A DNA stretch of 64,000 nt from Planctomycetota bacterium (GCA_018671175.1 JABHIE010000031.1:354128-418127); one strand, 5' to 3'; positions 25,692-36,178 are shown, counted from the stretch's first letter. Program-made: numbers and translations. Notes: generated by a model from the letters alone, not told the origin.

Positions 25692-26524
25692 ATCAAGTGT
25701 TAGCACATGCCGTTTCGCTAGCTGAGTCTGCTGGCGCGCTCTTACTCGATAAATTTGGGCAACTGGCCAGTGGGGAAGTCGGGCATAAATCGGCGAGTCG
25801 AGATTTGGTTACCGCAGCAGATTTGGCGAGCGAGGCCTTCATCCTGCGCGGCCTGCAAGATGCTTTTCCTGATGACTCGGTCTTGGCCGAAGAAGACGCA
25901 AAGGGCGTTTTCGCACGAGAAAGTGGGCAAACGGGGTCGTCTTGGATTGTCGACCCACTTGATGGCACCGTGAATTTCGTGCATGGTTTGCCGATGTGGG
26001 GCGTTTCGATTGCACGCATGACCGACGACAAAGTCGATGTCGCGGTTGTTCATCTACCTCGTCTCCAAGAAACTTTTACCGCCGTTTTGGGTGGCGGCGC
26101 ATTCTTGAATGGGCGACCCATTCAAGTTTCTGATGCTAAACATTTAGCCGATACGGTTTTGGCGACGGGTTTTCCATATCGTCGCCATGTTCTGCTTGAC
26201 GATAATCTCGAAAACTTTCAGAGGTTGTTTTTGCATCAGCGCGGCGTGCGCCGAATGGGAGCCGCAGCCGTTGATTTGGCCTATGTCGCTGCTGGGCGAC
26301 TCGGTGCATTCTGGGAGCTGCATCTCGCGCCCTGGGATGTTGCCGCTGGTGGTTTGTTGGTGCAAGAAGCCGGAGGCGTCGTAGATACGATTCAGCCTTC
26401 TGGCGATTGGCTTTTTGGGCGTAATCTGCTGGCCGGCCCAGAGCCGCTTTTGCTTGAGATGCGCGAGCATTTGCTCGCCGGTCGAGACCAAGATTACCCT
26501 CCGCTCGGAGAGCACCCCTCATGA
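25676..26524 (+). CDS. Inositol monophosphatase family phosphatase
   Basis: The metal-binding signature is complete: EED in VLAEEDAKG near residue 72, WIVDPLDGTVNFVHG near 89-103, and WDVAAGGLLVQEAGG near 222-236. The fold acts on inositol phosphate, histidinol phosphate or 3'-phosphoadenosine 5'-phosphate. Which substrate applies cannot be told from the motifs; SuhB-like or HisN-like are most likely. It overlaps dacB by 16 bases and the UvrA-like gene by ATGA. Confidence 0.92.
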   Translation: MDDSLNQVLAHAVSLAESAGALLLDKFGQLASGEVGHKSASRDLVTAADLASEAFILRGLQDAFPDDSVLAEEDAKGVFARESGQTGSSWIVDPLDGTVNFVHGLPMWGVSIARMTDDKVDVAVVHLPRLQETFTAVLGGGAFLNGRPIQVSDAKHLADTVLATGFPYRRHVLLDDNLENFQRLFLHQRGVRRMGAAAVDLAYVAAGRLGAFWELHLAPWDVAAGGLLVQEAGGVVDTIQPSGDWLFGRNLLAGPEPLLLEMREHLLAGRDQDYPPLGEHPS

Positions 26525-29500
26525 GCAGCATTCGCCTGCGTGGCCTGCGCGCAGGCAATTTGCAGAATGCTGATCTCGACCTCCAGCTCGGTCGCTGGAC
26601 GGCGATTCACGGTCCAAGCGGCGCAGGGAAGAGTGCACTTTTATTTGGCACACTTGAGCCAGTCGCCGCCCGCAGGTTTTCTTTGCTTTCCAAGCCTGAC
26701 TCACTTCCAGGAGGTACCGAAGACTGGTTGGTTCCGATTGCAGATTCGATTCAAGGGTTGCCCCCGACACTGGCTTCCGCGGGTGAAATCCCACGGAATC
26801 GCCGGCTCAAAGAGGTCGGTTCGGTGCTGGATGTCTGGCCCTTTCTGGCCGAGCAGTGGCAGCTGCATCCGCAGCGTTGTTGCTCCAATTGTGGGCATAA
26901 GTGGCTGCAACCGCAAATGGATGTTTTGCTTGAATTGGCTCGTTCCTGGCCAGTGGGGGTGCGCATTCACTTTTTCTCAGATGCGTCTGGCGCATCAACG
27001 GATGATCTTTTGCATGCAGGCTGGACGCGAGTTCGATTAAAGCAAACGCTTGCGCGCCTCGAAGAAGCTCCTGAGGTTTTGCCGGCTGAGAGTCAACTTC
27101 TTCTCGACCGTTTCAAATGGAAAGGTCGCGCATCTGAGGCTCGCCTTGCCGAGGCTTTATCCGAAGGTTTGCGCCGGGGGGTGGCCTTTCAGATTGACAT
27201 CCATGGTGGCGATTCGATTGATATCCCTAGCTCAACAAACTGCCCCACTTGTCAGTCCGAGCTTCCTAAACGAGATGCTGCTCATTTAGCGCAACTTACT
27301 CCTCAAGAGTCGGAAGGCTGTCAAGATGTCTGGGTAAAGGGTCATCCGTGGTCGGCATGGCGTAATGCACCGTTTTCGGATTGGCACTCCGCTTTCTCAG
27401 CAGAAAAGTCGTGCGCAACAACTCGTCGACTTCATTTCATAAGCCGCACAGGCTTAGGGCATTTGTCGGCCAGCCGGCAACTCGGCACTCTGTCGCTGGG
27501 CGAGGGGCGGCGCCTTGAGCTCGTAAGTTGGCTAGCTCAGGCACGCACGGGTCAGCTCTTGCTCTTTGATGAGCCCGGCATGGGCTTGCACGGCTCCGAG
27601 CGACGAGACTTAGCCGCTTTACTTCAAGAGCTCACACGGCAAGGCAATACGGTTTTGACTGCCGACCCCGCGCGTGAGTTTTTAGAAGCTGCCGACGAGT
27701 GGGTTCATCTTGGCCCCGGCGGAGGTCCTTCTGGTGGGCAAGTCGTCGCCCAAGGTAATCGTCAAGAATTGCCCAATGCAGATGACGCTCCAGCTTTTAC
27801 CGTTTCAAAACCCGATGCGGATACCTCTCTGTCCTTTTCAAACTTGCAGAAAAGGCATCTTGCAATACCATCTTTAAAGGTGCCATTAGGGCGCGTTGTG
27901 GCCTTCTGCGGAGTAAGCGGTAGCGGCAAGACGACGCTGGTTGAGCATGAAATCCTACCTCGATTGCGAGCGGAAGAAGGCTTTGAGGGTCAGCTCCCTC
28001 TCGGAGGCGTTCGCGTCTTGCTTGAGCGTGCTCTCGGGCATTCGCTTTGGTCAACTGTGGCGACCCTTTCGGGGGCTTGGCGCGAAATTCGCGAACATTT
28101 TGCGGAAGGTGAAGAGGGGCGCATTCGGGGTTTAAGCGCATCCGATTTTGTTGCCCGTCCAAAGCAAGGCGCTTGTGCTGTTTGCCAAGGTCATGGTGTG
28201 GCAGCAGATGGCATCCCTTGTGAGCACTGTGAAGGTCTTGGGTTGCGGCTTGATTTGCTCGATCTTCGATTTCGCTCAAGGTCTCTTCGTCAGTGGCTGA
28301 CCACACCTTTAGAGAGCTTGGAGAAGCGGCTACCTCAAGAAGGGCGGTTGCGCACTCTTGTGCAACACCTGTGCCGTCTTGGTTTAGGTGCGCGCACTTT
28401 CGGCGAGCGTGGTCGGCACTTGTCGCTTGGCGAGCGTGGTCGTCTTGCTCTGGCGCGTGCCCTTGCTAGCGCGCGCCGGGGCCGGCCTCAGCTTTTCTTG
28501 CTCGACGAGCCTTGTTTGGGGCTGCCGACCCCAGATGCGATGCGCGTCGTTGAGTTGCTTCGCTCCCTTACCGAGCAGGGCCATTCTTTCTGGGTTGTTG
28601 AGCATCACGAGGTCCTTCTTCGTAGCGCCGACTGGTTGATTGAGCTTGGCCCTGGCGCCGGCCCATCTGGTGGTAATTTACTTTTTGAAGGCCCACCTTC
28701 GGCTCTAGAGTCATCCCACACCCCAACCGCAGTCTGGTTTCGGCAATCCCGCCAGCAGGCTCTTTCGCCGCTGGCTTGGGAAGAATCAGCCCTTCCTCTT
28801 TCTGAGCGTCTTCAAGAAAATCTTGCCTTGCCCGCTCGCCGGCAGCTGGAAGACGATTTGTTGCGTGAGCTGGCCACTCGCTCTCCGCTTTTGAGTGACG
28901 CATTGCCTGCTCAGACTGCAAACGATGCTCTTCTGCCGCCTGTGGCTTGGCCTGTTTCACCTCCGCCACGCACGCCCGTCATTTCCGTTCTCGGTTTAGA
29001 TGCACTCTTCAAAGAAGCGCTACTTGAGCATGGTCAATCCCTTTGCCCAGCCTGTCGTGGTGGGGGGCCTTGGCCCGATTTGCTGACAGCCGTGGCCGCG
29101 CAGGCCGACCAGGGAGAGTTTGTTTTCGCGACTCCACTGAGCGCAAACCTTGCCGCCGAGGGTGCGACTTCACTTTTGCATGCGGCAGGTTTCCGGCGTT
29201 TTCTACGAGCAGGCAAGCGCGAAAAGATCACTCTCAAAAACCACATTCAGCCCGGCGAGCCCGTCTGGCTCGATCGCATCCACCTCAAAACAGATGATGA
29301 CGCACAGGGTCGTTTACTGGATTTAGAGCACCATTCGAGGCTTTTAGGTCAAAAAGAGTTGCTCGTGTACGCGCCCCAAGATTTAAATCACGCCGCGTGG
29401 GTCTATCACCCCGATGCTTGCCGAGATTGCGCGCAACGGGGCCTTGGCGTCGAGACTCAGCTCGCCGGGCTTTCCCGCGCAAAACTTTATGAATTACCGC

Positions 29501-30459
29501 TCCAAGAGAGTTTGCATCATTTTCAACGACATCTGCGTCAAGCGAACATCTTCAAGGAAGCACTCGATTTACTCGCCACCACGGATGTCCTCCGCGTGTC
29601 CGCACAAACCCCACTCAGCCAATTGTCCGAATGCAGCGCTCGGTGCGCGCACCTGATTGGCTGGCTGCTTTCACCACTCGACGGCGTGGTTCTTCTTGCA
29701 TCTCAACCTCTTGCGGGGCTTCCTCCTAAGTTGTCGCGGCAACTCGCTGATGCGTTTTCCGACGGGCGGCACGGGGTTTGGCGCTGGAGCGATGCGCAAG
29801 GCGAAAATCGGCTTACCGCTCCAACTCCGATGGCCTTCGATCTCGATGCTTGGTCGTTGCCAACTAGGGTGGGGCGCAACGGGCTTCTCCGTGATGCTCT
29901 TGGTTTGACTGACCCCTTGATTCAGCATTACCTTCGTACCGAGGAGGCCCGTTTTCGTGGCTTGAAGCAACAGGATCTTTCCTCCAAGGGTGCTCTGGCT
30001 TGCCCCAAATGCCGCGCAAATGGAACTTTTGCACCCCATCCTGAATTGCGGCTTGCTTGCCCAGCATGTTTCGGAACAGGATGGCGGCGTGAGGCGGCAG
30101 CCCTTGAAGATCGTGGCGTTTCATGGTCTCAATTGGGGCAGATGAGCCTTGAAGCCCTAGCTGAACATTTTGCCGCGACGCCTGCTTTGGCCGAAGTCCT
30201 TGAAGCGGCGCTGGCGTTCGGTTTTCACGGATTACAACTCGACGAGGCTATTCAGCGTTTGCCCGAGGCCGTGCGGCAGTGGGCCCCCTTGTGCGGCAAA
30301 CTCCAAATGGGTGGCTCTTGGAGACTGGCTGCCCCATTTGCTGGTTTAAGCCACTTGGAGGCAAAGCGAATCGCGTCTACAATGGATGGTTTCTCCCAGA
30401 GCAAAAATGACTTTGAGCAACAGGGTCATCCCGCTATGGGTGAGATGCCTCATGATTGA
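26521..30459 (+). CDS. Degenerate, extended UvrA-like ABC ATPase
   Basis: The 1312-residue product has two complete UvrA-type ATPase modules. Module 1: Walker A GPSGAGKS at 31-38, cysteine pairs at 121-124 and 241-244, signature LSLGEGRR at 324-331, Walker B LLLFDEP at 346-352. Module 2: Walker A GVSGSGKT at 464-471, zinc cysteines in 552-570, signature LSLGERGR at 634-641, Walker B LFLLDEP at 658-664. Residues about 820-1312 look like two further modules: CPAC at 842, an insertion-domain-like stretch, CRDC at 967, CPKC and CPAC at 1161-1183. They lack any Walker A; the signature is decayed to LSECSA and the Walker B lacks its acidic pair. Chlamydial UvrA is a known tandem duplication. This looks like a reduced version and is not the housekeeping UvrA. 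Confidence 0.88.
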   Translation: MSSIRLRGLRAGNLQNADLDLQLGRWTAIHGPSGAGKSALLFGTLEPVAARRFSLLSKPDSLPGGTEDWLVPIADSIQGLPPTLASAGEIPRNRRLKEVGSVLDVWPFLAEQWQLHPQRCCSNCGHKWLQPQMDVLLELARSWPVGVRIHFFSDASGASTDDLLHAGWTRVRLKQTLARLEEAPEVLPAESQLLLDRFKWKGRASEARLAEALSEGLRRGVAFQIDIHGGDSIDIPSSTNCPTCQSELPKRDAAHLAQLTPQESEGCQDVWVKGHPWSAWRNAPFSDWHSAFSAEKSCATTRRLHFISRTGLGHLSASRQLGTLSLGEGRRLELVSWLAQARTGQLLLFDEPGMGLHGSERRDLAALLQELTRQGNTVLTADPAREFLEAADEWVHLGPGGGPSGGQVVAQGNRQELPNADDAPAFTVSKPDADTSLSFSNLQKRHLAIPSLKVPLGRVVAFCGVSGSGKTTLVEHEILPRLRAEEGFEGQLPLGGVRVLLERALGHSLWSTVATLSGAWREIREHFAEGEEGRIRGLSASDFVARPKQGACAVCQGHGVAADGIPCEHCEGLGLRLDLLDLRFRSRSLRQWLTTPLESLEKRLPQEGRLRTLVQHLCRLGLGARTFGERGRHLSLGERGRLALARALASARRGRPQLFLLDEPCLGLPTPDAMRVVELLRSLTEQGHSFWVVEHHEVLLRSADWLIELGPGAGPSGGNLLFEGPPSALESSHTPTAVWFRQSRQQALSPLAWEESALPLSERLQENLALPARRQLEDDLLRELATRSPLLSDALPAQTANDALLPPVAWPVSPPPRTPVISVLGLDALFKEALLEHGQSLCPACRGGGPWPDLLTAVAAQADQGEFVFATPLSANLAAEGATSLLHAAGFRRFLRAGKREKITLKNHIQPGEPVWLDRIHLKTDDDAQGRLLDLEHHSRLLGQKELLVYAPQDLNHAAWVYHPDACRDCAQRGLGVETQLAGLSRAKLYELPLQESLHHFQRHLRQANIFKEALDLLATTDVLRVSAQTPLSQLSECSARCAHLIGWLLSPLDGVVLLASQPLAGLPPKLSRQLADAFSDGRHGVWRWSDAQGENRLTAPTPMAFDLDAWSLPTRVGRNGLLRDALGLTDPLIQHYLRTEEARFRGLKQQDLSSKGALACPKCRANGTFAPHPELRLACPACFGTGWRREAAALEDRGVSWSQLGQMSLEALAEHFAATPALAEVLEAALAFGFHGLQLDEAIQRLPEAVRQWAPLCGKLQMGGSWRLAAPFAGLSHLEAKRIASTMDGFSQSKNDFEQQGHPAMGEMPHD

Positions 30460-32170
30460 CTCCGACAAGCCCCTCATCCTCCAAGGCGATATGACTATCG
30501 TTCTCGAGACGACGCACCCTCGCTTTGAAGAGATGCGCGATGGCTTGCTGCCTTTCACAGAGTTGGTTAAGTCGCCTGAGTATTTGCACACTTATCGCGT
30601 GACGCCTATTTCCGTCTGGAATGCCTCGGCTACGGGGCTCAAGGCTTCCGAAGTGCTGGCCTTCCTCGAAGCTGAGAGCCGCTACGGAATGCCTAGCCAC
30701 TTTGCCGTTGAGATTGAGGGTTGGTTCAATCGTTGCGGAGTGTTTTCTCTTCACTCCGATGAAAGCACGGGCGAGTTGCGACTTGAGGCCACCGACCCTT
30801 CTCTTTTTGCTCAGCTTTTGCACGACTCCGAATTGGCGGCTCAATTCAAAGCCGTTGATGCCAGTCGAGGTCGTGGCCAGCTCACTCGCGGTCGCCGAGG
30901 CTTAGTCAAAGAACACCTCATCAAGCTCGGCTATCCCGTTGATGATCGCGCCGGTTATGTCGACGGAAGCCCTCTAGAGATTCGCCTTCGAGGTCAAGAC
31001 GAGGGTGGTTTTGCTTTGCGTGAATATCAAACGAGAGCCGTTGAGTCGTTCCATCGTGGCGGCTCAGCTCTAGGCGGGTCAGGCGTAATCGTCTTGCCGT
31101 GCGGCTCCGGTAAAACGGTGGTGGGTTTGGCCGCAATGGCCGCAGTCGGCACGCATACCTTGGTTTTGACGCCAAACACCGTTGCGCTGCGGCAATGGAA
31201 ACGCGAGCTTCTTGACAAAACGCATCTCACCGAAGATGACATCGGCGAATACAGCGGTGATTCAAAAGAGATTCGGCCCGTTACTTTGACGACCTATCAA
31301 ATATTGACTTACCGTAAAAAGAAAGGCGGCGAGTTCTTGCACTTCAACCTTTTCGCAGCAGGGAACTGGGGCTTAATCATTTACGATGAAGTCCATCTTT
31401 TGCCCGCACCCGTTTTTCGCGCGACGGCCGAGATCCAAGCGCGTCGTCGTCTAGGTCTAACTGCAACTTTGGTGCGCGAAGATGGCAAAGAAGATGAGGT
31501 GTTTTGCCTTATTGGCCCCAAGCGCTACGACGCGCCCTGGAAAGATTTAGAGCGCCGCGGTTTTATCGCTTCCGTGCAATGCGCCGAGATACGCGTTTCG
31601 ATGAGCGATGATTTGCGCGTTGAGTATTTGGCTTCAGGTAAGCGTTCGAGATTTCGTATTGCCTCAGAAAACCCAGCTAAAACAGATGTCATCCTTGCGT
31701 TGCTCGAGCGCCATAAGGGTGAGCGCATTTTGATTATTGGCCAGTATCTTGATCAGTTGCGTGAGCTGCAAAAAGAGTTGGGTTGCCCCATGATTACAGG
31801 CAAGATGCCTAATCCTGAGCGAGACCAGTGGTACGACGCTTTTCGAGAGGGGCGCGAAGAAGTTCTGCTTGTAAGTAAGGTCGGTAATTTCGCGATTGAT
31901 TTACCCGACGCATCTGTCGCTATTCAGATTTCAGGCGCCTACGGTTCTCGTCAAGAAGAGGCGCAGCGCATGGGGCGCATTTTGCGACCCAAAGCTGATG
32001 GGCGCGGGGCATCGTTTTACGCGATTGTCAGTGAAGCCAGCGTGGATCAAGAGTTCGCTGAAAATCGTCAGAGGTTTTTAACCGAGCAAGGCTACGCCTA
32101 CGCCATTTTGTCGGGTGATGCGCTGATCGCTGATCTTGACCGTCATTTTTCCCCTCATTGCCGCAATTGA
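30452..32170 (+). CDS. XPB/Ssl2-type DNA repair helicase
   Basis: A superfamily 2 helicase of the bacterial XPB group. From the ATG at 30452 (573 residues) there is an N-terminal XPB-like region, Walker A LPCGSGKT at 215-222, DEVH at 312-315, TAT with the XPB-specific RED motif (LTATLVREDGKEDE, 336-349), and C-terminal motifs V and VI (SKVGNFAIDLPDA, QRMGRILRP). XPB unwinds or translocates DNA in transcription and nucleotide excision repair in eukaryotes; bacterial XPBs are poorly understood. It overlaps the UvrA-like gene by 8 bases and the next gene by one base. Confidence 0.93.
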   Translation: MIDSDKPLILQGDMTIVLETTHPRFEEMRDGLLPFTELVKSPEYLHTYRVTPISVWNASATGLKASEVLAFLEAESRYGMPSHFAVEIEGWFNRCGVFSLHSDESTGELRLEATDPSLFAQLLHDSELAAQFKAVDASRGRGQLTRGRRGLVKEHLIKLGYPVDDRAGYVDGSPLEIRLRGQDEGGFALREYQTRAVESFHRGGSALGGSGVIVLPCGSGKTVVGLAAMAAVGTHTLVLTPNTVALRQWKRELLDKTHLTEDDIGEYSGDSKEIRPVTLTTYQILTYRKKKGGEFLHFNLFAAGNWGLIIYDEVHLLPAPVFRATAEIQARRRLGLTATLVREDGKEDEVFCLIGPKRYDAPWKDLERRGFIASVQCAEIRVSMSDDLRVEYLASGKRSRFRIASENPAKTDVILALLERHKGERILIIGQYLDQLRELQKELGCPMITGKMPNPERDQWYDAFREGREEVLLVSKVGNFAIDLPDASVAIQISGAYGSRQEEAQRMGRILRPKADGRGASFYAIVSEASVDQEFAENRQRFLTEQGYAYAILSGDALIADLDRHFSPHCRN

Positions 32171-34167
32171 TGCCTCAACTCACTTTATCCCGCACTTTAG
32201 CGAAGCGTTCCACAAGCGAGCTCGCTGAGCTGTTTGCGCTCTGGCATGAAAAAACGAATTCTCCTAATGGCCGAGCTGATTTGCTTGCGGCTTTGGCGAA
32301 ACGCATGAGCCAGCCATCCGCGGTCGCCGCCATAAGAGCGCAGCTCGACGAGACGCTCGACCCGGTTTTTCGTGCAATGAGCGTATACCCTGGCGAGGGG
32401 TTGCTTTTCGGTCGCATCAAGCACGACCCTAATTGCAACGGTGTCGAAAATCGATTGATTCGCTCAGCCTTAAGTGAGCTTGTGCATCTTGGCCTAGCCT
32501 CGATGTCAATGGGTGTTCGTTCTGGCGAAGAGCGCAAGCTGTGGGGCATCCCTATGGAAATCCACCTGGCTCTGGGGCAAACACCGCAGACAAAAGGTGA
32601 GCCCGGGTCTTTGCTCACTTTGCGAGGTTGGCTTGAGCAGGCCTTTCGTCGTCAAGGTCAAGAAGAGCCTGCTGAGCAAGCTAGACGCATGTACCGCTTT
32701 TTGGCTGACGACAAGGCATTGCTGGCTCGTATTGATGCCCTGGCGCCACAATTGAAAGAGGTTTACCACCTCATTGCGAGTGAGTGGGGCGGTATTGTTT
32801 CAATCGCTGACTATCAAACAAAAGCCCTTGAGCTTTCGTTTCAGGAATTAATCGACGGCCTTGAAAGTGCAACTCTAGGCACTGTCGGCGAGCTTGACCT
32901 CGAGAGCTTTGGTTTGCGCCAACGTGGCCAAGTGATTGCTCTCTTCGACGAGGGCGTTTTAGCCTATTTGCGCCGAGAAGGGGTTGTATCGGCTGTTTTA
33001 CCCGAATTCTCTGCAAGCATCGGGGTTGACTTTGTTTCCAACTTTGGCCGATTTGCTTCTTTTGTCGAAGGCGAAAATGTGCGATTCACAGTAAGCGGCT
33101 CACTATTCAAGAGCACGGGTAAACGCATAGCCGAGCGGCTCATTGCAAACCCTGGGCGTGAATTCAGGCGATTCGAAATTCTTGAACTCGAGTATAAGTT
33201 TGCACTCGCGCATGGCTTCATCGACCGCACGGGTAAGCGCACTTTTTCAGTAACACCTGAGGGCTTTGAGTTCTTGAATCAAAGCCTCGAAGACAAGCAG
33301 CGAGTCATGCTCGATTGGCTCATCGAAGATCGAGATTTACCTGGCGATCTTGCTCACCAAATCCCTCTCCGCCGCACGACGCTTCGTTACCTCAAGCGCC
33401 TTGAGCCTAATGTTTGGTATGACGCGATGTTCTTGCCTTTCGTGGTGCGCAATCATTACCTTGGTGGCTTGAGTATGCAGGCCCGGCGCAATGGTGAGTC
33501 GCGCTCATTCCCTGTGCGTTCGTCTGCCGATGTACGCTCTCTAGCCTGGAATTTGTTCACTTGGGTTCGTAAATATCTTTATTTACTTGGCATCATTGAC
33601 ATGGCATACGACGACTCGGGTCGAGCGACCGCAATTCGGCTCACTACTTTGGGGGCAGAGCTTCTCGAAGTCATTCCTGGCCGCGATCTCGAAGCCGCGG
33701 GGCGCATAGTCGTCAACCCTGATTTCGAAGTCGTTCTTTTTCCCGATGTTCGCTCGCATGGGCTGGTTTACGAGCTTGACCGTTTTTGCGACCGTGAAAA
33801 AACCGATAGCCTTTACCACTATCGCATTTCGCCAAGCAGTTTGCAGCGCGCGCTTGCAGAAGGGGAAACACTCGATGTGATTCTGGCTTTACTTCAGAGC
33901 CGCAGTCGCACTCCCGTTCCTCAAAATGTTTTGTATTCGCTTGAGTCTTGGGCGCGCCAAGACGGTCTCATCCATTGGGATGGAGCTCATGCGTTGCATA
34001 GCGAACAAAAAGAGGTCCTTGACCGAATTGCATTGCACCCACAGCTACAAGCCTTGGGCTTAGATCGCGCGAGCCCTAATGAGTTGCAAGTCAACAAGGC
34101 GATACCGCGCGAAGACCTCTCGGGCTGGTTAAGAGACTACGGCGTGGCTTTGCACATCGAGGCCTAA
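32170..34167 (+). CDS. Helicase-associated protein (XPB/Ssl2-like, Helicase_C_3 domain)
   Basis: A 665-residue protein of the type encoded next to bacterial XPB genes. The C-terminal half (GRIVVNPDFEVVLFPDV, YELDRFCDREKTDSLYHYRI) matches the Helicase_C_3 pattern. The N-terminal half has winged-helix-like segments (ENRLIRSALSELVHLGLA). It has no ATPase motif and is thought to be a partner of XPB. ATG at 32170 uses the TGATG junction with the XPB stop. A TTG at 32158 is possible but less likely. Function beyond partnering is unknown. Confidence 0.85.
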   Translation: MPQLTLSRTLAKRSTSELAELFALWHEKTNSPNGRADLLAALAKRMSQPSAVAAIRAQLDETLDPVFRAMSVYPGEGLLFGRIKHDPNCNGVENRLIRSALSELVHLGLASMSMGVRSGEERKLWGIPMEIHLALGQTPQTKGEPGSLLTLRGWLEQAFRRQGQEEPAEQARRMYRFLADDKALLARIDALAPQLKEVYHLIASEWGGIVSIADYQTKALELSFQELIDGLESATLGTVGELDLESFGLRQRGQVIALFDEGVLAYLRREGVVSAVLPEFSASIGVDFVSNFGRFASFVEGENVRFTVSGSLFKSTGKRIAERLIANPGREFRRFEILELEYKFALAHGFIDRTGKRTFSVTPEGFEFLNQSLEDKQRVMLDWLIEDRDLPGDLAHQIPLRRTTLRYLKRLEPNVWYDAMFLPFVVRNHYLGGLSMQARRNGESRSFPVRSSADVRSLAWNLFTWVRKYLYLLGIIDMAYDDSGRATAIRLTTLGAELLEVIPGRDLEAAGRIVVNPDFEVVLFPDVRSHGLVYELDRFCDREKTDSLYHYRISPSSLQRALAEGETLDVILALLQSRSRTPVPQNVLYSLESWARQDGLIHWDGAHALHSEQKEVLDRIALHPQLQALGLDRASPNELQVNKAIPREDLSGWLRDYGVALHIEA

Positions 34168-34168
34168 A

Positions 34169-34774
34169 ATGCTGATGCCACCCAGAGGCGTTTGGGCAAT
34201 CGCATCAGACCTTGAATCGGCAACAGAAGCCATGCAATGGGCAGATGGCGCAGCTTGCGCACAAGCGTTTAGTTTTCGTTCCACCCAGCCGCAATCGGCT
34301 CGAATTTCACTCGCATGCCTTCAATCTATGCGCGAGCGCCTGCCTTGGCTTGCGGTTCATGCGCGGGCATCTTGGGCTCGATTGGTCGGTGCTGACGCCC
34401 TCATTGTGGGCTCTAGGGGTTTGCCTGTCTTCGAGACTCAGCAACTTTGGGATAGCAGCCTTGGCTTAAGTTCGCATTCGCCTGATGATCTTCAAATCGC
34501 TCAGAGCGGCGGCTTTGCTTTTGCTTTTGCCAGCCCCATTTGGGCAACCCCGTCTAAGGCGGGCATCCTTGAGCCACTTGGCTTAGAGACTCTACGCAAT
34601 CAAGTGGCCGATTTTGATGTACCACTCATCGCCCTGGGTGGTGTCAGCACGCCCGCACAAGTGGCTCAGTGCGCAGAGGCAGGCGCTCATGGCGTAGCGG
34701 TTTTGCGTGCAGCTCAAGAGCCAAAATTGTTGGCCGAAATGGTGGATGCCTGGCGTGAAACGGCTAAGGCCTAG
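34169..34774 (+). CDS. ThiE/TenI-like TIM-barrel protein
   Basis: The 201-residue product follows the ThiE/TenI layout: HARASWARLVGADALIVG, then GLSSHSPDDLQIAQSGG, then SPIWATPSKAG (compare GPVFPTxTK), and a phosphate-binding end LIALGGVSTPAQVAQCAEAG. The ThiE catalytic block around DGVHLGQ is replaced by DALIVGSRG, so thiamine-phosphate synthase activity is doubtful and a TenI-like or other role is possible. It follows the helicase-associated gene by one base. A second ATG at 34175 is an alternative start. Its 3' end overlaps the convergent pseudopilin-like gene by 11 bases. Confidence 0.72.
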   Translation: MLMPPRGVWAIASDLESATEAMQWADGAACAQAFSFRSTQPQSARISLACLQSMRERLPWLAVHARASWARLVGADALIVGSRGLPVFETQQLWDSSLGLSSHSPDDLQIAQSGGFAFAFASPIWATPSKAGILEPLGLETLRNQVADFDVPLIALGGVSTPAQVAQCAEAGAHGVAVLRAAQEPKLLAEMVDAWRETAKA

Positions 34775-35282
34775 GCCATAAAACTTGGAGTATGTCGTTG
34801 GCTTCCAGCGAAAAATGAGTCGGTAGAATGCCATCTGACCCGCCAGTAGCAATCGTCAAAATGTCGCGCCCTTGATGAGGTATCACGCGCATTGCGTACG
34901 CGTTGCCCCATGGGTCGATGGGCAGAAAAGTTTCATGGGGGAAGAGCGATTTGAGCGAGTGCGCAATATCAGCATCTTGCTCTATAGCCTTGGGGCGTGC
35001 ACCGGGCCCGAGCCAGAGATGCCCTCCAACTAGATCAGGCGCATAAACGCCGCCAAGCGTGGCATCCTCGAGCGCGAGATGAATGTGTCCGCGCAAATAC
35101 TCAAGGGCTGATTCGACCTGCGAAAGGCGAGCTCTTGGGCGCTCAGGTACCAGCGTCTTTACAATTAGCAAACTCACCAACGCTAAGAGAGCCAAAGCCC
35201 AGAGCCATTCGGCTCGGCTGAGACCGGAACTCGAGCTGCGGGCATTTGGTAAAACTGACGATGGGGCAGGGCGAAGAAGCAT
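34764..35282 (-). CDS. Type II secretion GspG-like pseudopilin
   Basis: From the ATG at 35282 (172 residues) the product has a short basic leader, a hydrophobic helix at about 24-45 (EWLWALALLALVSLLIVKTL), and a C-terminal part typical of major pseudopilins: PIDPWGNAYAMRVIPHQ and TIATGGSDGILPT, which resemble the GspG calcium-binding loop. The prepilin peptidase site is unusual, with SRAEWLW in place of GFTLIE. GGAAG lies about 10 bases upstream. Other secretion genes are absent. Its 5' end overlaps divergent thiL by 22 bases. Confidence 0.72.
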   Translation of the reverse strand: MLLRPAPSSVLPNARSSSSGLSRAEWLWALALLALVSLLIVKTLVPERPRARLSQVESALEYLRGHIHLALEDATLGGVYAPDLVGGHLWLGPGARPKAIEQDADIAHSLKSLFPHETFLPIDPWGNAYAMRVIPHQGRDILTIATGGSDGILPTHFSLEANDILQVLWPRP

Positions 35283-36178
35283 TGCATGACATCTTCCGGA
35301 ATTCTTTCCGCGGAGGGAAGGGCCTTTCTGGCCCAGGCTCAGATTGTGCTCGCTTGAAACCACCTTCTGGTGTGGCCACCTTGCAAACTGTCGATCAACT
35401 CATCGAGGGCGTGCATGCTGAATTGGGCACTCCCTGGACCACCCTCGCCCGCAAATTGCTTCGACGCACGCTCAGTGATTTGGCGGCTGTCGGGGCTCGT
35501 CCGTGGGCTGTTAGCTGGACAATTGCCGCGCCAGCTTCTGCTAGCCAATCTCGTCTCAAGCGAATGGCGCAAGCCTTTTTGGCTGAGGCCAACGCCTTCG
35601 GGTGCGCTGTCGTGGGCGGCGATTTGTCTCAAAGCCCTCATCTGGTTTTGACTTGTACTGCGACCGGCCTCGAGGGTCGGCGTCGCGCTCCAGGTCGATC
35701 AGGCGCTCGACCTGGCGATTGGCTCTTAGTTACCGGGCGACTGGGTGGGGCCGTTCAATCTGGAAGACACCTTCGCCCTGAGCCTCGCTTAACTGAGGGC
35801 ACGCGTCTCAATCAGACCTATCGCCCGCGAGCCATGATGGATTTGTCCGATGGCTTAGCGACTGATTTACCTCGACTCTTGCGGGCATCGGGGGTGGGCG
35901 CACAAATCCAGTTGAACGATTTGCCACTCCATCCAGAGGCCACCAAGGCAACGGGCCATGAGCGTTGGCAATGTGCACTTGCTGAGGGCGAAGATTACGA
36001 ATTGCTGATTGCCCTTCCCGCTCGCCGCGCACGGATGGCCTTGACCGACCCCGTTTTGTTGCGCACCGGTTTGACTCAAATCGGCACAGTTACAGAAGGC
36101 AACTCTTTGGTCTGGCTAGATGGGCAAACGCCTTTACGGGCAAAGTTCAAAGGCTGGACTTATTCTTGGAAGTCATGA
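35261..36178 (+). CDS. thiL: Thiamine-monophosphate kinase
   Basis: ThiL phosphorylates thiamine phosphate to thiamine pyrophosphate. The PurM-like fold is recognisable: GPGSDCARL (for the usual GIGDDAA), TVDQLIEGVHAE, RTLSDLAAVGARPWAV, VGGDLSQSPHLVLT, MMDLSDGLATDLPRLL and AEGEDYELLIALP. The ATG at 35261 is preferred to the TTG at 35246; TAAAAC ends 5 bases before it. The gene couples to tsaE by ATGA. It is not under a visible riboswitch. Confidence 0.92.
   Translation: MGQGEEALHDIFRNSFRGGKGLSGPGSDCARLKPPSGVATLQTVDQLIEGVHAELGTPWTTLARKLLRRTLSDLAAVGARPWAVSWTIAAPASASQSRLKRMAQAFLAEANAFGCAVVGGDLSQSPHLVLTCTATGLEGRRRAPGRSGARPGDWLLVTGRLGGAVQSGRHLRPEPRLTEGTRLNQTYRPRAMMDLSDGLATDLPRLLRASGVGAQIQLNDLPLHPEATKATGHERWQCALAEGEDYELLIALPARRARMALTDPVLLRTGLTQIGTVTEGNSLVWLDGQTPLRAKFKGWTYSWKS

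Follow-up and report, generated by a model that had tools for sequence, protein, structure and literature searches.

Adjacent genes in an uncultured Planctomycetota bacterium encode both halves of the clutch pair by which p52 and XPB are joined in TFIIH, a complex that serves repair and transcription in eukaryotes, and the gene for a UvrA-like protein stands directly upstream of them. The three genes lie in a 64,000-nucleotide stretch of DNA (the window; GCA_018671175.1, JABHIE010000031.1:354128-418127), which is part of contig 23 (C23) of a draft genome (G000; 2.39 Mb, 89% complete). All three are on the plus strand and encode the UvrA-like protein (P0001; 26521 to 30459; 1,312 amino acids [aa]), the DNA repair helicase XPB (P0002; 30452 to 32170), and a p52/Tfb2-like protein with a Helicase_C_3 domain (P0003; 32170 to 34167; 665 aa). 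An earlier note on this DNA had described three large genes overlapping by 8 and 1 bases at 26521 to 34167, and hence made together, with identities UvrA-like, XPB, and Helicase_C_3; the coordinates were confirmed, and the identities are borne out by the TIGR00630, NF045503, and PF13625 profiles. We suggest that the XPB-p52-like translocase probably takes part in UvrABC repair together with UvrA, ahead of UvrB and UvrC.

The role of bacterial XPB has been an open question from the 1990s onward, one ground for doubt being the apparent lack of TFIIH partners, which seemed absent from bacteria in a 2012 study (PMC3353954), and a 2026 review still terms its function elusive (PMC13024598). With a p52-like partner beside XPB and UvrA beside both, a role for XPB in excision repair becomes directly testable. 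The families of the parts, the annotated tandem UvrA, the annotated bacterial XPB, and Helicase_C_3 as a Pfam entry were already known. Our literature search turned up no description of a bacterial p52, of the p52-like identity of the XPB partner, or of the UvrA-XPB-p52 gene unit; most subscription papers and preprints lay outside that search, so this is no proof of novelty. Two papers on p52 make no mention of bacteria (PMC7708078, PMC9557730).

XPB and its p52/Tfb2-like partner

P0002 scored above the cutoffs of two XPB profiles (NF045503, 813.8 bits against 610; TIGR00603, 330.6 bits against 328.7) and matched human and yeast XPB chains with E values down to 4e-81. Its helicase core (31013 to 32122) contains the superfamily 2 and RED motifs (GSGKT, DEVH, LVRED, and QRMGR, read from the translation and aligned to yeast and human XPB). 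A PF13625 domain at residues 30 to 151 (30473 to 30838) is by sequence the XPB N-terminal domain, the kind that binds p52 in TFIIH. There, the p52 clutch is homologous to the XPB N-terminal domain, and the two form a pseudosymmetric dimer that recruits XPB (PMC6422496), and p52 stimulates the XPB ATPase (cited in PMC6422496).

PF13625 also matched P0003 (residues 518 to 637; E = 2.5e-17; 63.5 bits against a cutoff of 34.2), and the clutch-like domain is placed at 33709 to 34068. A single-sequence search of P0003 against PDB gave no match, and profile and fold searches were needed. The AlphaFold model of P0003, built from a 44-sequence alignment (mean pLDDT 88.2; pTM 0.73), was compared with PDB by Foldseek: the first 19 hits were all TFIIH p52/Tfb2 (best 7zs9_2, E = 3.6e-9; further hits include 9pd3_D, 8ebt_D, 6trs_B, and 6nmi_D), where chains not named p52 in the Foldseek table are ones that we take to be p52/Tfb2 from our reading of the TFIIH entries. 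The alignments cover most of p52. The next-ranked hits were XPB chains, matched via the homologous N-terminal domain, and a profile search with P0003 reached the human XPB N-terminal domain (E = 8.5e-5). In the model, an array of winged helices (approximately 32395 to 33660, from the predicted secondary structure) is followed by the clutch domain, the order found in p52/Tfb2, and a small beta-beta-alpha-beta element forms the C-terminal end (residues 631 to 663). We conclude that P0003, as modeled, matches TFIIH p52/Tfb2 in domain order and fold, with a clutch homologous to the XPB N-terminal domain. The earlier note had taken the third protein to be the usual partner of XPB; its p52/Tfb2-like identity is more specific than that guess. 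By analogy with p52-XPB in TFIIH, P0003 and XPB would pair through their homologous PF13625 domains, and this pairing would anchor and stimulate XPB.

Compared with XPB-p52 of TFIIH (Ssl2-Tfb2), the bacterial pair shares the PF13625 domain at the XPB N terminus and a partner with a winged-helix array followed by the homologous clutch, and TFIIH supplies its best fold matches. It differs in being a bacterial, putative complex that is gene linked to UvrA, and P0003 is longer (665 aa against approximately 450 to 510 aa for p52/Tfb2). P0002, above the curated cutoff of NF045503, is of the same family as the bacterial XPB of Mycobacterium tuberculosis but is gene linked to uvrA and a p52-like gene. 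Archaeal XPB-Bax1 likewise consists of XPB with a dedicated partner; however, Bax1 is a nuclease and Archaeoglobus fulgidus XPB lacks the N-terminal domain, according to the literature, whereas P0003 comprises winged helices and a clutch domain and has no nuclease match.

A reduced UvrA with an ATPase-dead second half

P0001 matched the UvrA profile TIGR00630 (NCBIfam) with E = 2.4e-88 and 297.4 bits, below the equivalog cutoff of 729.8 bits, and is therefore termed a divergent, reduced UvrA. Residues 1 to 735 can be aligned with UvrAs of solved structure, apart from a single large gap. In this part a motif scan identified two intact ATPases (Walker A at residues 31 and 464, signature at 324 and 634, Walker B at 348 and 660): ATPase I has GPSGAGKS (residues 31 to 38; 26611 to 26634) and LSLGE with LFDEP (27490 to 27576), and ATPase II has GVSGSGKT (27910 to 27933) and LSLGE with LLDEP (28420 to 28512). 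Both ABC signatures thus read LSLGE, not LSGGE, a form that does not vary among those same-family UvrAs in which the motif was located.

The UvrB-binding domain is kept (approximately residues 112 to 247, with CxxC at 121 and 241; 26854 to 27261, from a phmmer alignment to 2r6f; 89% of Escherichia coli residues 119 to 250 covered). Equivalents of Geobacillus stearothermophilus UvrA R176 and R206 are present, the latter corresponding to E. coli R216 at the UvrB interface. The insertion domain, which serves in damage recognition, is missing: coverage of E. coli residues 285 to 400 is 9%, and at its site (E. coli 290 to 400; 27262 to 27420) approximately 50 unrelated residues remain (gap at 261 to 442 against 3pih). 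This domain is absent from every UvrA sampled in the source family (f1; f2 to f8 denote the other families of the same Planctomycetota order). In E. coli numbering, all ten f1 UvrAs sampled keep the Walker lysines K37 and K646, the UvrB-interface R216, and the DNA-binding R712 and R724; position 722 holds R or K, position 730 has D in place of R, and position 502 has A or S in place of G. In E. coli, UvrA without residues 290 to 400 discriminates damage poorly, and global repair is hurt more than Mfd-dependent, transcription-coupled repair; the G502D change likewise impairs global more than Mfd-dependent repair, and the UvrB-binding domain and DNA-binding arginine set are essential for both (PMC3025350). 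By sequence, the f1 UvrA resembles the E. coli 290-to-400 deletion, with the loader parts retained and the sensor part lost.

In the remainder of P0001 (residues 738 to 1312; 28732 to 30456), the motif scan detected neither a Walker A nor a signature nor a Walker B; the zinc CxxC pairs are kept. An hhalign comparison pairs the f1 family alignment of this region with the second halves of intact tandem UvrAs (probability 98.8; E = 7.3e-17). Its AlphaFold model (pLDDT 80) has UvrAs as all 38 of its best PDB hits (E down to 7.1e-18) and also matches the isolated UvrA-UvrB interaction domain 3fpn (TM 0.64 of target). P0001 is derived from a fused tandem, four-ATPase UvrA whose second unit lost all ATPase motifs and keeps the UvrA fold; as modeled, that unit retains a UvrB-interaction-like domain and zinc modules.

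Set against class I UvrA, P0001 has in common two intact ABC ATPases, the UvrB-binding domain, zinc modules, DNA-binding arginines, and service as sole UvrA alongside UvrB and UvrC, but it differs in the lost insertion domain, in LSLGE for LSGGE, and in the extra ATPase-dead half at its C terminus. With tandem UvrAs of approximately 1,800 to 2,050 aa (NF001885/PRK00635; chlamydial) it shares two UvrA units in one chain, the four-ATPase form being the norm in sister families; its second unit, in contrast, is without ATPase motifs and has shrunk to approximately 570 aa. A natural UvrA that is without the damage-recognition domain and has one dead half can separate sensing from UvrB loading. Plasmids searched with P0001 yielded nothing beyond ordinary UvrA-like matches, each with <60% identity and less than 80% of the query covered.

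Insertion domain loss and XPB linkage across the order

UvrAs in the order are of three kinds. The first, to which XPB-linked UvrAs of f5, f6, and f8 usually belong, is a tandem protein in which each half has a UvrB-binding domain and an insertion domain and all four ATPases are intact. The second is a class II-like tandem without the UvrB-binding domain, never XPB linked in the sample. The third is XPB linked and keeps the UvrB-binding domain but has lost the insertion domain (f1, f2, f7, and, in part, the first half in f4). Families f2, f7, and f4 have an additional, unlinked UvrA that retains 77% or more of the insertion domain; in f1 the reduced form is the sole UvrA. In this sample, near-complete loss of the insertion domain occurred only in XPB-linked UvrAs, and every unlinked UvrA sampled keeps at least 77% of it.

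These kinds bear on whether the trio might serve in defense or antibiotic self-resistance, as a class II UvrA-like ABC protein with a helicase. Weak PADLOC profile matches to ABC ATPases and helicases would fit such a role; however, they are generic short stretches, the UvrB-binding domain that class II UvrAs are without is present in P0001, class II-like tandem UvrAs exist separately in relatives and, in the sample, never next to XPB, and inheritance looks vertical, among housekeeping genes. We rejected P0001 as a class II UvrA on account of its UvrB-binding domain and the trio as a defense system on account of the generic hits and vertical synteny, and we regard this explanation as most improbable.

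In two f7 loci (L173, 3383-6436 and 8712-11528; L083), two separate genes of approximately 940 to 1,030 aa make up the unlinked canonical UvrA, and the final part of the XPB-linked UvrA shows no recognizable Walker A motifs. Three class II-like tandem UvrAs without the UvrB-binding domain (G039:C9; G045:C27, in L185; G060:C27, in L072) each have an in-frame TGA in the matched region, for which decay, a split gene, and sequencing error are candidates.

The genome has one UvrA together with UvrB and UvrC

A genome search identified the P0001 gene as the only full UvrA match in G000, with just generic ABC ATPases elsewhere. When same-family genomes were searched with P0001, only its orthologues were among the matches listed. 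The same search detected canonical UvrAs of sister families (31 to 38% identity) at E values of approximately 1e-50, so a canonical copy in f1 should have shown. G000 is incomplete, yet the other f1 members agree with P0001 as the only UvrA. Full-length uvrB (G000:C23:506056-507999; E = 5.6e-266) and uvrC (G000:C23:504308-506008; E = 6e-123) lie side by side on the same contig as the trio, and both were found throughout the sampled relatives. The genome also has mfd (C16:3857-5908), two UvrD-type helicases, and one DinG/XPD-type helicase.

The earlier note had asked whether separate uvrA, uvrB, and uvrC genes exist, and had pictured a UvrA derivative that, as sensor, joined an XPB pair for damage recognition and unwinding, in repair or surveillance without UvrB and UvrC. 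XPB could in principle unwind instead of UvrB. That model nevertheless gave way at several points: the absence of UvrB and UvrC is rejected by the full-length genes, the UvrA is not an extra gene, its active half keeps the UvrB-binding domain and interface arginine, the dead half keeps the matching fold, and the trio holds no nuclease. We consider repair independent of UvrB and UvrC very improbable.

Conservation of the trio

Close relatives of G000, found by an XPB search in the named collection, are Planctomycetota metagenome assemblies. Synteny was counted from match coordinates. In f1, UvrA is directly upstream of XPB in all 23 judgeable genomes (three more could not be judged from their contigs), and in f2 to f8 the same holds for 27 of 34 XPB-bearing genomes; the remaining seven comprise four f6 genomes with UvrA elsewhere and three broken or ambiguous cases. 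XPB scored above the cutoff in 115 of the 246 Planctomycetota genomes sampled. Elsewhere in the phylum, 20 of these above-cutoff XPB loci were taken from other families: a p52-like gene adjoins XPB in 16, and UvrA is also directly upstream in five (L198, L201, L205, L209, and L211); L166, in the named collection, is a further trio locus. The trio is thus limited neither to this strain nor to its order, occurring in scattered families outside it, so the refuting case named in the earlier note, synteny confined to this strain, does not apply, and its conservation across many genomes upholds the earlier view that the arrangement is informative for bacterial XPB. Outside the phylum, XPB lies beside weakly similar p52-like genes on two contigs from Bacillota and one from Sumerlaeota.

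In the f6 genomes from which UvrA has moved away, XPB and the p52-like gene remain paired, and one genome (G037) has neither XPB nor the p52-like gene and retains UvrA. The link of XPB to the p52-like gene is closer than that of UvrA to the pair. In G043 (C11:117195-118358, in L186), the XPB match covers query residues 187 to 576 only, the N-terminal part being gone, and the p52-like gene beside it is hardly detectable, possibly a joint decay of the pair. A record labeled Thorarchaeota (L146) carries an XPB 56% identical to the planctomycete XPB with a p52-like gene 3.5 kb off; binning contamination is likely.

Probable coupling of UvrA to the XPB-p52-like translocase

In TFIIH, XPB-p52 opens DNA at lesions. 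The trio would, on the reading that we favor, be the front end of UvrABC nucleotide excision repair fitted with an XPB-p52-like motor. This translocase would be brought to DNA with UvrA and would open or probe the duplex at the lesion. UvrA would load UvrB at sites offered by another motor, be it Mfd at a stalled polymerase or the co-encoded XPB-p52-like translocase, and the f1 UvrA, with its own damage-recognition part missing, would be mainly a loader placing UvrB; UvrB would then verify and UvrC would cut. Most other families of the order keep the UvrA insertion domain, so XPB-p52 there would assist rather than replace recognition. We count in favor of this reading the sole UvrA, the adjacent uvrB and uvrC, the conserved loader residues, the insertion domain absent from all sampled f1 UvrAs and almost wholly lost only in XPB-linked UvrAs of the sample, the A or S at G502, the p52-like fold, the XPB-p52-like gene pair at 16 of 20 loci of other families (with UvrA at several), the stand-alone trios of L166 and L211, the joint absence of XPB and the p52-like gene in G037, and the persistence of the pair in f6. 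The trio also offers a lead on the origin of TFIIH. A stronger version is tentative and, taken whole, rather doubtful: that bacteria possess the XPB-p52 core of TFIIH as a translocase dedicated to excision repair and coupled to UvrABC, which in f1 took over damage finding from a UvrA that shed its insertion domain and turned half of its fused dimer into an ATPase-dead scaffold. If this version is true, bacteria have a machine that combines UvrABC with TFIIH-type damage opening, possibly a relative of the source module of eukaryotic TFIIH.

Several observations weigh against this interpretation. Functional or physical coupling of UvrA, XPB, and p52 is deduced from genes and models. The p52 similarity of P0003 rests mainly on fold: the profile match to the Tfb2 clutch is weak (E = 0.09 over 29 residues), N-terminal winged-helix arrays also weakly match other proteins, and global TM-scores against p52 are low (0.2 to 0.3), a level expected for a flexible multidomain protein whose linked domains differ in orientation, so that the p52 claim concerns domain order and fold, not rigid superposition. 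The association of insertion domain loss with XPB linkage comes from a small sample, in which independent losses may number no more than two or three, and long branches kept the tree of UvrA halves from placing f1, so that it does not decide between a loss shared with f2 and f7 and a separate one. UvrA and XPB are apart in the f6 genomes mentioned above, and some loci keep inositol monophosphatase (IMPase), XPB, and p52 without UvrA. Finally, the flanking genes (PBP4 and IMPase upstream; thiE, thiL, tsaE, and sigma downstream) are syntenic across the order too, so trio adjacency within the order is weak evidence of coupling and partly inertia.

The last two points, together with the UvrA left in G037 after loss of XPB and p52, would fit an account in which uvrA adjoins xpb-p52 only via a long, intact ancestral gene string (PBP4, IMPase, uvrA, xpb, p52-like, thiE, thiL, and tsaE), UvrA serving ordinary UvrABC repair and XPB-p52 a separate role. 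Given the flank synteny, weight moves to loci with different flanks: at L166 and L211, opposite-strand genes border the trio on both sides and the usual neighbors are missing. This speaks against mere inheritance of a gene string, as do the confinement of near-complete insertion domain loss to XPB-linked UvrAs and the membership of both UvrA and XPB in excision-repair families. We judge the ancestral-string account unlikely, though a serious alternative to coupling.

Pfam confirmed three of the opposite-strand flanks of the stand-alone trios: GreA/GreB-domain proteins downstream in both loci and a protein kinase upstream in L166. The GreA/GreB-domain genes, immediately downstream of the trio in two distant Planctomycetota (L166:13788-16142 and L211:11677-13896, both on the minus strand), encode proteins of 739 to 784 aa that end in GreA/GreB N- and C-terminal domains, a possible transcription elongation-repair link. 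These neighbors would suit a translocase associated with promoters or RNA polymerase, with the reduced UvrA working mainly in transcription-coupled repair. TFIIH XPB-p52 serves transcription as well as repair, Mfd is present, and E. coli needs the insertion domain missing here less for transcription-coupled than for global repair. However, with Mfd the genome already has a coupling factor, neither XPB nor P0003 yielded a polymerase-binding element, and the insertion domain persists in most linked UvrAs of the order; a primarily transcriptional role is, in our estimate, distinctly unlikely.

Gene layout and neighbors

The uvrA-like gene ends with TGA at 30457 to 30459 and xpb starts with ATG at 30452, giving the 8-base overlap. 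The mechanical xpb open reading frame begins at 30386, and family matches start only from approximately residue 29 of that frame. The third gene starts with ATG at 32170 within ATTGATG and overlaps the xpb stop codon (TGA, 32168 to 32170) by 1 base. The trio belongs to a longer run, in which the IMPase gene upstream shares 4 bases with uvrA and a thiE-like gene lies 1 base downstream of the p52-like gene. The thiE-like and thiL genes that adjoin the repair trio span 34169 to 36178, and a TPP riboswitch (RF00059; 69.8 bits) is located far upstream of them, at 249 to 344 of the window on the plus strand.

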